A stretch of DNA of 45,478 nt from Betaproteobacteria bacterium HGW-Betaproteobacteria-12 (GTDB taxonomy: Bacteria; Pseudomonadota; Gammaproteobacteria; Burkholderiales; Rhodocyclaceae): the NCBI GenBank assembly GCA_002842345.1, contig PHCU01000011.1, positions 1 through 45,478 of the forward strand. The letters are read 5' to 3'. Within the stretch, counting starts at the first letter, position 1; every line of letters starts with the position of its first letter. Below, in pieces: positions 4,593 through 26,542 of this stretch. The notes under the pieces are model-generated. The model was not told the origin of the DNA. It did no database searches and saw nothing but the letters and a program-made list of their open reading frames with translations. The position numbers and the translations under genes are program-made.

Positions 4593-7454
4593 ATGAACGT
4601 GGTCGCGATGCGCAAGGAGAGGGGGGGCATCGATCCCGCGCAGTTGCTCGCGGTGGTCGGCGCCGTGGTGCGCGAGGCGCGCCCGAACGTGGCGCCGCCG
4701 CAGGTCACGCTCGACAGCGCACTGGAGAAGGATCTCGGGCTCGACAGTCTGGCGCGCGTCGAGCTGGTGCTGCGCCTGGAACGCGAGTTCGCGGCAAGCC
4801 TGCCTGAGCAGGCGCTGGCGACCAGCGAAACGCCGCGCGACCTGCTGCGCTTTCTGCTCGGCAGCGCCGGTCAGGCGCCGCAAGCCGCCGCGCACAGCCT
4901 TGTCAGCCTGGTGCGGTCGGACGGTGTGCGCGCGCCGAACGAAAGCCAGGCGCGGACGCTGACCGAGGCGCTGGCCTACCACGTCGAGCGCCAGCCCGAC
5001 CGGCTGACGGTGTTCATGTACGAGGAGCAGCAGGAGTTTCCCCTCAGCTACCGCGCGCTGTGGGACGGCGCGCTGGGTTACGCGGCGCAGCTCGTGCAGG
5101 CCGGCCTGCAGCCCGGGCAGATGGTGGCGATCATGCTGCCGACCGGCCGGGAGTACCTGTATGCGTTCTACGGGGTGCAGCTCGCCGGCGGCGTGCCGGT
5201 GCCCCTGTACCCGCCGGCGCGGCTGAGCACCATCGAAGACCACATGACGCGTCACGTCGGCATCCTGAACAACGCCGGCGCCGTGATCATGATCACCGTG
5301 CCCGAGGCGAAGGCGCTCGCCTACCTGCTGCGCGCGCGGGTCGAATCGCTGCGCACGGTGCTGGTACCGGCCGATCTCGCTGGCAGCGGCGCGGGTTTCT
5401 CGCCGGTGCCCGGCCGACCCGGCGATATGGGATTCCTGCAGTACACCTCGGGCAGCACCGGCAGCCCCAAGGGCGTGGTGCTGTCGCACGCCAACCTGAT
5501 GGCCAATGTGCGCGCCATGGGCGCGGCGGTGAAGGCCAGTCCGGAAGACGTGTTCGTCAGCTGGCTGCCCCTGTACCACGACCTCGGGCTGATCGGCGCC
5601 AATTTCGCCGCGCTGGTGCTCGGCTTTCCCACTGTGCTGATGTCGCCGCTCGCCTTCCTGGCCCGGCCGGCCAGCTGGCTGCGCGCCATCCACCGCCACC
5701 GCGGCACGATCTCGGGCGGCCCGAACTTTGCCTTCGAACTGTGCCTGCGGCGCATCCCGGACGCGGAGATGCAGGGCATCGACCTGTCGTCCTGGCGCTT
5801 CGCCTTCAATGCCGCGGAACCGGTCAGTCCGGACACCATCGTCCAGTTCGAGCAGCGCTTTGCCCAGTACGGGCTGCGCCGGAACTGCCTGGCGCCATCC
5901 TATGGCCTCGCCGAGTCCTCGGTCGGCGTCGCGATCACCCCGCCGGGCACCGCCTGGCGCGCCGACCGGCTCGACCGCGAGCGCTTCACCCGCTCCGGGC
6001 AGGCCGTGTTCGCCGGCCCCGGCGACCTGTCGCCGCTGGTGGTGATCGGCTGCGGCACGCCGATCCCCGGCCACGACATCCGCGTGGTGGATACGGCGGG
6101 GTTCGAACTGCCCGATCGCCAGGAAGGTCTGCTGCAATTCCGCGGCCCTTCGTCCACCTCCGGCTATTACCGCAATCCGGCGGCGACGAAGACGCTGTTC
6201 GCCGGCGACTGGCTCAACACCGGCGATCGCGCCTACCTGGCGGAAGGCGTGCTGTTCATCACCGGCCGCGAGAAGGACATCATCATCCGCGGCGGTCGCA
6301 ATATCAGCCCCTACGAACTCGAGCATGCGGTGGGCGATCTGGCCGGCGTGCGCCGCGGCTGTGTCGCGGTGTTCGGCAGCACCGACGCGGCGAGCGGCAC
6401 CGAGCGCGTGGTGGTGCTGGCCGAGATGCGCGAGGGCGACGCATCACGGCACGCGGATCTCCGGTGGATGATCAATGAACTGGCGATCGGCCTGATCGGT
6501 GGGCCGGCCGACGACATCGTGCTGGCGCCGCCGGGGACGGTGCCCAAGACGTCCAGCGGCAAGATCCGCCGCGTCGCTGCGCGCCAGTACTACGAGCGCG
6601 GGCCGGCGGCCGTGCAGCCGCCAGCGGTGTGGCGCCAGTTCGCACGCCTGATGCTCGCCGGGGCGGCACCGCAGTTGCGGCGCGGGGCGCGCACGCTCGG
6701 CGGCCTGCTGTTCGCGCTGCGCGCCTACGCCGTGTTCGGCGCGCTGTTCCCGCTGGCACTGGTGGTCGCGCCGTTGGCCTCGGTGCCGGCCTGCTGGCGG
6801 GTCGGCGGTTTCGTGGCGCGCTGGTTCCTGCGCCTGTCGGGCATCCCGGTGGTCGCGCACGGGCTGGAACACCTCGATACCGGCGCGCCGGTGGTGGTCG
6901 CGGTCAACCACACCAGCTACCTCGACGCGGTCGTGCTGCTGTCGCAGCTGCGCTATCGCGGCTACGCCTTCGTCGCCAAGCGCGAGTTCCAGGACAACCC
7001 GCTGATGCGCCGGCTGCTGGCCGGCTACGGCACACGCTTCATCGAGCGCTTCGACGTGGCGAAGAGCGCCGAGCAGGCCAACGAACTGGCCGTGGCGGCG
7101 CGGCAAGGCGTGTCGCTGATCGTCTTCCCCGAGGGCACGCTGACGCGCCACACCGGCCTGCGGGCGTTTCGCACCGGCGCCTTCCAGGCGGCGGCGTCGG
7201 CCGGCATCGCCGTGGTACCGATCGCGTTGCGCGGCGTACGTTCCGTGCTGCGCGACGAAACCTGGTACTTGCGCCGCGCCCCGGTGGCGATGACGGTGGG
7301 CGCCCCGATCCGCCCCGCCGGCACGGACTGGGCCGCGGCCGTGGCGCTGCGCGAGGCGGTGCGTGCCGAGATCCTGCGTGGCTGCGGCGAGCCCGACCTG
7401 GCCGCAGCGGGAGGCGCACTCGACGAAGTGCAGGTCGGCCAGTCCCGATCGTAG
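4593..7454 (+). CDS. ACP / fatty-acyl-AMP ligase / 1-acylglycerophosphate-type acyltransferase fusion
   Basis: This 953-residue protein has three domains. Residues ~10-90 are an acyl carrier domain with the phosphopantetheine site DLGLDSLAR (Ser52). Residues ~110-680 are an adenylate-forming domain with YTSGSTGSPKGVV (~284-297), SWLPLYHDLGLIG, a GREKDIIIRGGRN block and PKTSSGKIRR. The LPLYHD and PVPLYPPAR blocks favour the fatty-acyl-AMP ligase (FAAL) group over acyl-CoA ligases. A hydrophobic stretch at ~705-745 precedes a PlsC-like acyltransferase with NHTSYLD (~772-778) and FPEGT (~844-848). Inferred action: a fatty acid is adenylated, loaded on the fused ACP and passed to a lyso-lipid or other acceptor at the membrane. 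E. coli Aas is the closest well-known functional analogue but has no fused ACP. The ATG at 4593 has only a weak ribosome site; ATG 4608 is an alternative. Substrate unknown. Confidence 0.85.
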   Translation: MNVVAMRKERGGIDPAQLLAVVGAVVREARPNVAPPQVTLDSALEKDLGLDSLARVELVLRLEREFAASLPEQALATSETPRDLLRFLLGSAGQAPQAAAHSLVSLVRSDGVRAPNESQARTLTEALAYHVERQPDRLTVFMYEEQQEFPLSYRALWDGALGYAAQLVQAGLQPGQMVAIMLPTGREYLYAFYGVQLAGGVPVPLYPPARLSTIEDHMTRHVGILNNAGAVIMITVPEAKALAYLLRARVESLRTVLVPADLAGSGAGFSPVPGRPGDMGFLQYTSGSTGSPKGVVLSHANLMANVRAMGAAVKASPEDVFVSWLPLYHDLGLIGANFAALVLGFPTVLMSPLAFLARPASWLRAIHRHRGTISGGPNFAFELCLRRIPDAEMQGIDLSSWRFAFNAAEPVSPDTIVQFEQRFAQYGLRRNCLAPSYGLAESSVGVAITPPGTAWRADRLDRERFTRSGQAVFAGPGDLSPLVVIGCGTPIPGHDIRVVDTAGFELPDRQEGLLQFRGPSSTSGYYRNPAATKTLFAGDWLNTGDRAYLAEGVLFITGREKDIIIRGGRNISPYELEHAVGDLAGVRRGCVAVFGSTDAASGTERVVVLAEMREGDASRHADLRWMINELAIGLIGGPADDIVLAPPGTVPKTSSGKIRRVAARQYYERGPAAVQPPAVWRQFARLMLAGAAPQLRRGARTLGGLLFALRAYAVFGALFPLALVVAPLASVPACWRVGGFVARWFLRLSGIPVVAHGLEHLDTGAPVVVAVNHTSYLDAVVLLSQLRYRGYAFVAKREFQDNPLMRRLLAGYGTRFIERFDVAKSAEQANELAVAARQGVSLIVFPEGTLTRHTGLRAFRTGAFQAAASAGIAVVPIALRGVRSVLRDETWYLRRAPVAMTVGAPIRPAGTDWAAAVALREAVRAEILRGCGEPDLAAAGGALDEVQVGQSRS

Positions 7455-7526: not shown

Positions 7527-7542
7527 TGTCGCAAAAGCGACA
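7527..7542 (+). promoter_or_regulatory. Candidate NifA upstream activator sequence
   Basis: The motif TGT-CGCAAAAGCG-ACA fits the NifA consensus TGT-N10-ACA exactly, and the internal bases extend the dyad (TGTCGC/GCGACA). It lies 80 bases upstream of the -24/-12 element at 7607, within the usual activator-site distance. A 6-base dyad alone could be chance; the spacing to a sigma-54 motif raises its weight. Confidence 0.6.
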
Positions 7543-7606
7543 AGCGCAGCAGCAAATCGCCCGGCCTACCGGAGCGGATGTCCGGTGTTTACCGGGATCG
7601 CCACGC

Positions 7607-7621
7607 TGGCATCGCTTTTGC
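7607..7621 (+). promoter_or_regulatory. Candidate sigma-54 (RpoN) -24/-12 promoter
   Basis: TGGCATCGCTTTTGC matches the consensus TGGCAC-N5-TTGC, with GG (7608-7609) and GC (7620-7621) exactly 12 bases apart. The predicted transcript start is near 7633, giving a leader of about 26 bases before the rhodanese ATG at 7659. Confidence 0.65.
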
Positions 7622-7658
7622 GTGGTTACCGCCATCGCGTCCAACCGTCCCGCCCGCC

Positions 7659-7997
7659 ATGCCACTTACCGAACCCCCCAGCTTTCGCTGCCTGTCCGCT
7701 GCCGAAGCCCTCGGCCTGATCCGCGACGAAACCGCGGTGACCGTCTTCGATGTCCGCGACATGGCCCATTATCAGCGCGGCCATCTCGACGGCGCCGCCC
7801 ACCTGTCCGAAGATCGCCTGCTGGCCTGGATGCGCCGCCTGGCCAAGGATGCGCCGGTGGTCATCTACTGCTACCACGGCAACGCCAGCAAGACCTACGC
7901 GCAGATGTTCGTCGATTTCCGCTACACCCGCGTCTTCAGCGTTGATGGTGGCTACGAGGCGCTGGCCGCGGTGCCGGCGGCAACGGCCGCGGCATGA
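7659..7997 (+). CDS. GlpE-like single-domain rhodanese (thiosulfate sulfurtransferase)
   Basis: Rhodaneses move sulfane sulfur from thiosulfate or persulfides to thiol acceptors. At 112 residues this is a single rhodanese domain of GlpE size. FDVRDMAHYQRGH is the CH2A-type block, and the active loop CYHGNAS places the catalytic Cys at residue 71, the same loop as E. coli GlpE. The frame is open upstream, but ATG 7659 starts the conserved domain and lies just after the predicted sigma-54 start site. The stop overlaps the next ATG by 4 bases. The NifA/RpoN-like promoter suggests sulfur supply under nitrogen-fixing conditions; this is inference. I recall a rhodanese (rhdN) in Azotobacter nif regions. 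Confidence 0.85.
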   Translation: MPLTEPPSFRCLSAAEALGLIRDETAVTVFDVRDMAHYQRGHLDGAAHLSEDRLLAWMRRLAKDAPVVIYCYHGNASKTYAQMFVDFRYTRVFSVDGGYEALAAVPAATAAA

Positions 7998-8362
7998 GTG
8001 CCGCGCACGTCGCCAGCTGGGTGCAGACGCACGCCCTGACGCCCAGCGACATCGACTGCATCACCACGGTGATGCTCAAGATCCTCGATGGCAAGTGCAA
8101 GATGGGCAGCGTCGAGAAGATCGTCATGGCCCAGCTTTACGACGCTGTGCAGCACCGTGACGGCGAGCGCTTCGGCGGCGAATACCACTGGTTGATCGCC
8201 CGTGCCCGCGCCGCTGCCGAGGAGGAGCTGAAGAACCTCCTTTACGAAAAGCGGGTGCTGGCCGAGACCATGCTGTCGCGGCCGGTGATGAAGGCCTTCA
8301 AGGCAATGCTCCGCGAAGAGGGGCTGTTCGCCGGCCTGCTCGAAGAGGAGGCAGCGGCATGA
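7994..8362 (+). CDS. Small conserved protein between rhodanese and GST, function unknown
   Basis: A 122-residue, mostly helical, charged protein with no signal peptide or membrane segment. It has two cysteines close together (IDCITTVMLKILDGKCKMG, Cys22 and Cys36) and an acidic C-terminus ending in LLEEEAAA. Its ATG overlaps the rhodanese stop (ATGA), and its own stop overlaps the GST start, so the three products are almost certainly translationally coupled. I do not recognise the family. From context it may assist sulfur or thiol chemistry. Confidence 0.8.
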   Translation: MSAAHVASWVQTHALTPSDIDCITTVMLKILDGKCKMGSVEKIVMAQLYDAVQHRDGERFGGEYHWLIARARAAAEEELKNLLYEKRVLAETMLSRPVMKAFKAMLREEGLFAGLLEEEAAA

Positions 8363-8991
8363 CCATGAAGTTCTACATGACCCCCGGCTCGTGCTCGACA
8401 GGCATCCACATCCTGCTCGAGGAATGCGGCCTGGTCTTCGAGGCCTGGCTGGTCAACCTGCTGGCCGGCGATCAGTACAAGAAGGACTATCTGGCGATCA
8501 ATCCCAAGGGCAGCGTGCCGGCGCTGGTGCTCCACGACGGCACGGCGCTGACCGAGTTCTCGGCCATCGCCTGGTGGCTGGCGCGCCGCTATCCGAAGCG
8601 AAAACTGCTGCCGGAAAGCCTGGCCGACGAAGTGCAGGTGCTCAGCGTGCTGAATTACGCCGTGCACACCCTGCATACCCAGGGCTTCGCCCGCATCTTC
8701 ACCACCGAGCGCTTCGCCCCGAGCAGTTGCGACCATGAATCGGTCAAGGCCCAGGGCCGGCAGATCGTCGACCAGGGCTTCGCCATCGTCGATCGCCAGC
8801 TGGCCGGCCGCGACTTCGTCGTCGATCACTTCACCATCGCCGACGCGGCGCTGTTCTACGTCGAGTTCTGGGCCGAGCGCATCGGCATCCCGCTGCCGGA
8901 CAACTGCGCCGCCCACTACCGCCGCCTGCTGACCCGGCCGGCGGTGCGCCAGGTGCTGGCCGAAGAGGGCTACGCCTCGGCGTTGCGTTAG
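8359..8991 (+). CDS. Glutathione S-transferase-like protein
   Basis: This 210-residue protein has an N-terminal thioredoxin-like domain beginning MKFYMTPGSCSTGIHILLEE, with NPKGSVPAL and the cis-Pro region before TEFSAIAWWLARR, then an all-helical C-terminal GST domain containing the FTIADAALFY N-capping block. Ser/Cys at the PGSCS position suggests a beta-class-like or Ser-type active site. It overlaps the upstream gene by 4 bases; ATG 8365 is an alternative start. As third gene of the putative NifA/RpoN operon it may protect oxygen- or thiol-sensitive metalloenzymes, but its substrate cannot be read from sequence. Confidence 0.85.
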   Translation: MTMKFYMTPGSCSTGIHILLEECGLVFEAWLVNLLAGDQYKKDYLAINPKGSVPALVLHDGTALTEFSAIAWWLARRYPKRKLLPESLADEVQVLSVLNYAVHTLHTQGFARIFTTERFAPSSCDHESVKAQGRQIVDQGFAIVDRQLAGRDFVVDHFTIADAALFYVEFWAERIGIPLPDNCAAHYRRLLTRPAVRQVLAEEGYASALR

Positions 8992-26352: not shown

Positions 26353-26412
26353 TTGAATTATTCCTGTAATTTAAAATGTTTTTCCAGAAACACAATTAAG
26401 CCATTAAAAATT

Positions 26413-26439
26413 ATTATAATATTTTGTCTTTTCATTCAA
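26413..26439 (-). promoter_or_regulatory. Putative sigma-70 promoter of the ATPase/PIN-like operon
   Basis: On the minus strand a perfect TATAAT (26413-26418) lies ~60 bases before the ATPase ATG. A -35-like TTGAAT at 26434-26439 is 15 bases further; shifting by one base gives ATTGAA with a 16-base spacer. In AT-rich DNA such matches arise by chance. Confidence 0.4.
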
Positions 26440-26542
26440 TCGTTAACTCGGTAATCCAGTGGGTTAATTACGCGGCATATTGGCTTTTTCGGTGTTTGAA
26501 ATAGAACATAACCCGTTTTGGGTCATTCTTAATCAGGACAAC

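Follow-up and report, generated by a model that had tools for sequence, protein, structure and literature searches.

The window, i.e., the whole stretch of DNA that was analysed (45,478 nucleotides), is a complete contig (C155) of its assembly and contains a compact predicted operon of three genes that is preceded by two promoter-like elements (Table 1). The first gene codes for a rhodanese and the last one for a glutathione S-transferase-like (GST-like) protein; the gene between them is referred to below as the middle gene and its product as the middle protein. Both junctions, rhodanese/middle gene and middle gene/GST-like, are ATGA overlaps, as claimed in the first-pass annotation of this DNA. 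The rhodanese scores 87.2 bits with the GlpE model, below the curated cut-off of 102, and the GST-like protein scores 118.3 bits with the GstA model, below the curated cut-off of 198, so that neither can be assigned to the respective equivalog. The same annotation had found no nif genes in the window and, indeed, a tblastn search with 16 nif/rnf protein queries produced no match there at E ≤ 0.001. Upstream of the operon (4593-7454), the window encodes a 953-aa fusion of an acyl carrier domain, an AMP-binding (fatty acyl-AMP ligase-like) domain and an acyltransferase.

Table 1. Predicted genes and promoter elements of the operon (positions in the window)
Feature	Coordinates	Strand	Basis and characteristics
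NifA-type upstream activator sequence TGT-N10-ACA, TGTCGCAAAAGCGACA	7527..7542	+	sequence pattern; conserved in relatives
sigma-54 -24/-12 element TGGCAT-N5-TTGC, TGGCATCGCTTTTGC	7607..7621	+	sequence pattern; conserved in relatives
single-domain rhodanese, 112 aa	7659..7997	+	PF00581, 62 bits; CYHGNAS loop
middle gene, 122 aa	7994..8362	+	all-helical predicted fold; invariant C22 and C35; no Pfam/NCBIfam family
glutathione S-transferase-like protein (GST-like), 210 aa	8359..8991	+	PF13409 and related; PGSCS motif near the N-terminus

The putative activator site is a perfect 6-bp dyad around AAAA. The -24/-12 element starts 80 bp downstream of the start of this site, stands 37 bases ahead of the rhodanese ATG and has its GG and GC 12 bases apart, a spacing that counts among the marks of this regulon; both parts of the original description, an exact TGT-N10-ACA motif with an extended dyad and a -24/-12 element 80 bases further on, are therefore accurate. 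This element is the sole TGGCAY-N5-TTGC sequence without mismatches within the window. Taken singly, however, the motifs are unremarkable: the window has 3 copies of TGT-N10-ACA where 3.5 are expected and, if one mismatch is allowed, 6 of the -24/-12 pattern where 8.8 are expected. It is the combination of the two that carries weight. Between the two motifs, there is no IHF-like site nearer than 3 mismatches. Two more TGT-N10-ACA sites, 116 bp apart (26377-26508), precede an AAA_15/AAA_21 ATPase gene on the minus strand; their surroundings contain no -24/-12 match at one mismatch or fewer.

Relatives of the middle protein were collected from a family sample of genomes and from named genome records (80 kept of 148), and comprise, after removal of 8 duplicates, 93 unique loci including the window (L numbers below); tblastn against plasmid records gave no match. 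Many of the loci are close kin, so that the counts are not independent. Matches to the -24/-12 pattern (at most one mismatch, 2.2 kb upstream) number 53, in 46 of the 93 loci, whereas the opposite strand has 12 and a downstream stretch used as a control has 7 on each of its strands. The motif pair at a spacing of 60-90 bp is present within 2 kb in 24 of the 93 loci, against none on the opposite strand and a mean of 0.04 in 200 shuffles. Within 3.2 kb, the pair is found in 43 loci with up to two mismatches and in 29 with up to one; the respective controls are 2 and 1 on the opposite strand, 1 per strand of the downstream stretch in both cases, and means of 0.35 and 0 in 60 shuffles. The other 50 loci have no pair at 60-90 bp with up to two mismatches in these 3.2 kb, some owing to contig ends.

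The association is tightest for loci with the gene order of the window. Whenever the rhodanese gene directly precedes the middle gene and a GST gene follows it, the pair is present (18 of 18 loci, the window and 17 relatives), and among all loci with the rhodanese directly before the middle gene, 19 of 25 have the pair. Four of the six without a pair at 60-90 bp (L080, L097, L102, L103, L106, and L123) have one at 101-111 bp, further upstream. Locus L107 is counted through its second-best -24/-12 match, at 83 bp, the better match being at 114 bp. In 12 same-type loci, picked for having the motif, mean pairwise identity is 0.84 in the activator site (0.74 in its free N10) and 0.88 in the -24/-12 element; the corresponding values are 0.24 for the sequence immediately upstream, 0.37 for the spacer and 0.46 for the downstream sequence. 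Thus, the alignment of upstream regions that was proposed along with the first description finds the motifs conserved ahead of many orthologues. The spacings form two groups, of 12 pairs at 65-70 bp and 30 pairs at 77-83 bp, apart from two pairs at 89 bp; the groups differ by about one helix turn which, in our own reading, would follow from a need for the activator to face the polymerase. Locus L096 has two complete composites upstream, at -1533/-1456 and -462/-384 relative to the middle gene.

The host assembly (4.52 Mb in 312 contigs, 95% complete, 6.88% contamination) contains nif genes together with nifA and rpoN. Profile searches identified nifH, nifD, nifA (674 bits, cut-off 528.85) and rpoN (460 bits, cut-off 277.35), the genes whose presence the first-pass annotation had proposed to check; nifK-, nifN-, nifX-, DUF269-, iscA-, nifU-, nifB- and rnf-like genes were identified by eye from translations. 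A composite pattern consisting of TGT-N10-ACA, a gap of 45-75 bp and TGGCRY-N5-TTGC has 4 sites in the 4.5 Mb of this genome, versus 0 for the control, the same pattern read backwards. These sites are located ahead of iscA-nifU, ahead of nifB, ahead of the operon described here and at a contig end; looser motif pairs stand ahead of nifH and the rnf genes. The fourth composite (C257, 26757-26848; locus L174) faces the contig end about 100 bases away and, because it points there, a further nif-regulon gene may lie just past that end. In 24 relatives, all chosen for having the middle gene, 83 joined motifs were found versus 3 in the control; two pairs of these places overlap, five are sites at the operon by coordinates, and most of the others were counted only. 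Given the contamination of the bin, the nif contigs could belong to another organism; against this, the chromosome record of Dechloromonas SSB2 (itself a MAG) has the operon, the composite and nifD all on one record.

The middle gene occurs mainly in genomes with nifD-family matches. In the family sample, the gene is present in 21 of 199 genomes and a nifD-family match in 93 (83 over the cut-off); all 21 genomes with the middle gene have such a match, 20 of them over the cut-off and one (G066) below it (hypergeometric probability 3e-8, uncorrected for kinship). Conversely, 72 of the 93 nifD-positive family genomes are without the middle gene, which therefore is optional among diazotrophs; within the genus of the window, G112 has nif genes without the middle gene and G147 has neither. 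Among further genomes, all 48 that were searched, drawn from those of the 80 record loci, have a nifD-family match, over the cut-off in 39; in the remaining 9, no nifD match reaches the cut-off, and some of the matches score like paralogues or fragments. In a class sample of 274 genomes, 7 have the middle gene, 32 have a nifD-family match, and 6 have both. The single exception (G487) has no nifD match, and genes resembling nifZ, iscA, nifU, nifS, nifV and cysE are recognizable by eye within 10 kb of its middle gene. The middle-protein family is thus rarely seen outside genomes with nif genes.

Of the observations that the first-pass annotation had named as refuting its view, two, a genome without nifA and a lack of motif conservation at orthologues, are contradicted by these results, and rpoN is present as well. 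The original suggestion that the operon is an outlying member of the nif regulon therefore gains support, and control by NifA and sigma-54 appears very likely as judged from the sequence patterns. NifA itself would then be the activator, and the three genes would be co-transcribed.

The middle protein is well conserved. In the 93 sequences, 19 positions are invariant, among them W9, D21, C22, K29, D32, K34, C35, M37, Y49, R87, E91, P97, V98, M99, and K100; a partly different set of 76 sequences also has 19 invariant positions, again including C22 and C35. Two AlphaFold models, built from 21 and 76 sequences (pLDDT 89.5 and 89.4, respectively), predict an all-helical fold of six helices and a low-confidence tail helix. 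The protein from the window has no Pfam or NCBIfam match at E ≤ 1, and the 76 members show scattered weak matches, each to at most 2 members (best E 0.0058 in Pfam and 0.019 in NCBIfam). The best match among PDB sequences has E of 0.1, and Foldseek found no match at E ≤ 0.001 for the 21-sequence model in PDB or for the 76-sequence model in BFVD. Assignment to a known family or fold was accordingly dropped, as no Pfam, NCBIfam, PDB or BFVD relative was found. The two invariant cysteines suggest metal or persulfide chemistry. The family is not mentioned in the available portions of open-licence papers (PMC3916325, PMC8467165, PMC2820453, PMC8907163, PMC3464626, PMC10581106, PMC13382767, PMC9945222, PMC3912193, PMC6606865, PMC9769520, PMC12811062), and it might have an earlier name. 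Altogether, the middle protein is probably an unrecognised helper of nitrogenase.

The same gene is also found in operons led by other genes, for which the pair was sought with up to two mismatches, at a spacing of 55-125 bp, in 4 kb upstream. In the SagB-like type, 6 of 10 loci have the pair (L067, L109, L110 and L112 from Azotobacter, L133, and L137); L124, L129, L150, and L157 have none under these settings, and in L129 and L150, the rhodanese and GST genes are present with an extra gene between. The NifX-like-led type has the pair in 9 of 16 loci (weak in L115), the AAA-led type in 8 of 11, and the remaining loci of other types in 5 of 23. In Azotobacter vinelandii (L110), the pair, with a spacing of 79, ends 37 bp ahead of the SagB-like frame. 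Azotobacter has a rhodanese, rhdN, in its nif region; the A. vinelandii counterpart of the operon is a different locus, about 26 kb from a nifD-family match which we take to be anfD. The gene for the SagB-like nitroreductase (L110:7149-8828 and relatives) heads the Azotobacter-type operon, right behind the NifA-type switch. According to PMC8467165, azo2278 of Azoarcus BH72, with two predicted nitroreductase domains, is 490-fold induced. Because genes that we read as pot genes follow the operon in L110, Avin_48770, a hypothetical gene beside the pot operon that is associated with reduced fitness on glycerol and sucrose in PMC12811062, probably lies nearby. An AAA ATPase of about 565 aa (L131:8314-10008 and relatives) is encoded next to the middle gene in 14 of the 93 loci.

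With respect to the function, we infer, as a real but far from assured possibility, that the operon handles or protects the metal-sulfur clusters of nitrogenase, that is, provides a sulfur- and thiol-handling accessory set for cluster biogenesis or repair. Under this scheme, when fixed nitrogen is scarce, NifA would bind the TGT-N10-ACA site and activate sigma-54 polymerase at the -24/-12 element, so that the rhodanese, the helical middle protein and the GST-like protein would be made together with nitrogenase. The rhodanese would carry sulfane sulfur, the GST-like protein would use glutathione to load, unload or protect cysteine thiols, and the helical protein with its two cysteines might serve as a carrier or adaptor, with a NifX/NifB-type FeMo-cofactor-domain protein as its partner in many relatives.

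The main alternative, which is itself quite conceivable, is that the operon is controlled by NifA and sigma-54 but serves general redox protection of N2-fixing cells (persulfide, thiol or oxygen stress) and has no part in the assembly of cofactor or clusters. Rhodaneses and GSTs typically deal with sulfane sulfur and oxidative stress, and the operon is optional among diazotrophs. In addition, the GST Achr_5670 of A. chroococcum, which may or may not correspond to the operon GST, is induced with N2 fixation and classed as oxidative stress response in PMC9945222. The neighbourhood of the middle gene, however, argues against a purely protective role. A PF02579-like gene adjoins or overlaps the middle gene in 27 of the 93 loci (tblastn; PF02579 confirmed for L110 and L183) and in L183, where the order established by eye is nifH, nifD, nifK, ... 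an LRV-type protein, mod-like genes, ... a PF02579 protein, a 97-aa protein, the middle gene, nifE, nifN, nifX, the middle gene sits between the PF02579 gene and nifEN; both observations point to cofactor work. L184 and L185 have an AAA-ATPase gene ahead of the middle gene, with nifE-, nifN- and flavodoxin-like genes in the same stretch, and in L185, a GST-like gene follows the middle gene; in L186, the middle gene is near nifU/nifS/nifV-like genes. Orthologues of the middle gene are thus located inside nif clusters in L183-L185 (the first-pass annotation had proposed to look for the same three genes there in relatives), and tblastn places a gene of nif or rnf type no more than 10 kb from the middle gene in 18 of the 93 loci. 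In L150 (3350-9345; Pseudomonadaceae UBA5811), the genes behind the operon code for a NifA-like activator, which at 473 bits stays under the nifA cut-off, and for a nifE-type protein, which passes its own cut-off with 675 bits; they may be part of an alternative nitrogenase system.

It seems rather unlikely that the middle gene alone belongs to nitrogen fixation, with the rhodanese and GST genes being operon passengers. The company of the middle gene is variable, as such a scenario would have it: across the 93 loci, tblastn finds the rhodanese upstream in 35, the GST downstream in 37 and both in 26, and elsewhere, the middle gene is accompanied by the AAA ATPase gene, the PF02579-like gene or, in 19 loci, no tested neighbour, many loci being cut by contig ends (a SagB-like gene was found in 15 loci and a flavodoxin gene in 13). 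Nevertheless, the rhodanese and GST genes recur around the middle gene in two otherwise different operon types, one in Rhodocyclales and the other in Azotobacter and some Pseudomonas. Control by a sigma-54 activator other than NifA, with a coincidental TGT-N10-ACA match, is very improbable: the host does have 23 NifA-profile matches, of which the 22 below the cut-off probably are other sigma-54 activators, and the window contains TGT-N10-ACA by itself about as often as chance predicts, but in this genome, iscA-nifU and nifB have the same pair ahead of them, nifH and rnf have similar sites, and the activator site of the operon is conserved along with its spacing. Chance motifs ahead of an ordinary sulfur-metabolism operon, a reading that can draw on the chance frequency of each motif taken singly in the window, are hardly credible and were set aside on the conservation and shuffle tests (the pair is in 43 of 93 loci, whereas the opposite strand has 2 and the shuffles average 0.35; all 18 operons with the gene order of the window have it).

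A more specific form of the proposed role in nitrogenase cluster biogenesis is put forward here tentatively. The middle protein could be a new nitrogenase-assembly factor, a helical protein with two cysteines that, as a carrier or adaptor, would cooperate with NifX/NifB-type cofactor carriers or the AAA ATPase in the transfer, repair or protection of cofactor precursors. Diazotroph lineages would have rewired it into at least four operon types, often with the NifA/sigma-54 switch retained in one of two spacings that differ by a helix turn. Nitrogenase helpers encoded outside the textbook nif clusters are an open question of practical importance, e.g., for moving nitrogen fixation to new hosts. 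In the present case, the promoter, the co-occurrence and the gene neighbourhood all link nitrogen fixation to a well-conserved family for which neither Pfam nor NCBIfam has a model, and the model organism A. vinelandii has an orthologue of the middle gene, for which we met no name, behind the same kind of switch.

Several known systems resemble parts of this operon. GlpE and GstA belong to the same domain families as the operon rhodanese and the GST-like protein, both of which score below the cut-offs of those equivalogs. The NifX/NifB C-terminal domain type (PF02579) is resembled by the gene that adjoins the middle gene in the 27 loci mentioned above; the middle protein itself, predicted to be all-helical, shows no similarity to this family, and the operon in the window is without such a gene. 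A close parallel to the rhodanese is PST1303 of Pseudomonas stutzeri A1501, a rhodanese of the nif island annotated as 'thiosulfate sulfurtransferase glpE', for which the table in PMC2820453 gives an N2-fixation value of 53.99. This value belongs to PST1303; it makes induction of the operon rhodanese plausible and is no evidence about the operon rhodanese itself. PST1303 has a glutaredoxin-related gene, nifQ and nifB as neighbours, whereas the contig of the operon is free of nif genes; in that table, NifA and RpoN sites are marked at nifB, not at PST1303. Finally, NafU, a nitrogenase-associated factor of Azotobacter that was placed in the inner membrane, is raised in N2-fixing cells, a rise recorded for NafU, according to PMC8907163; unlike the operon of the window, NafU is encoded near nif clusters but, like the middle protein, it is a small, non-core protein limited to some diazotrophs.
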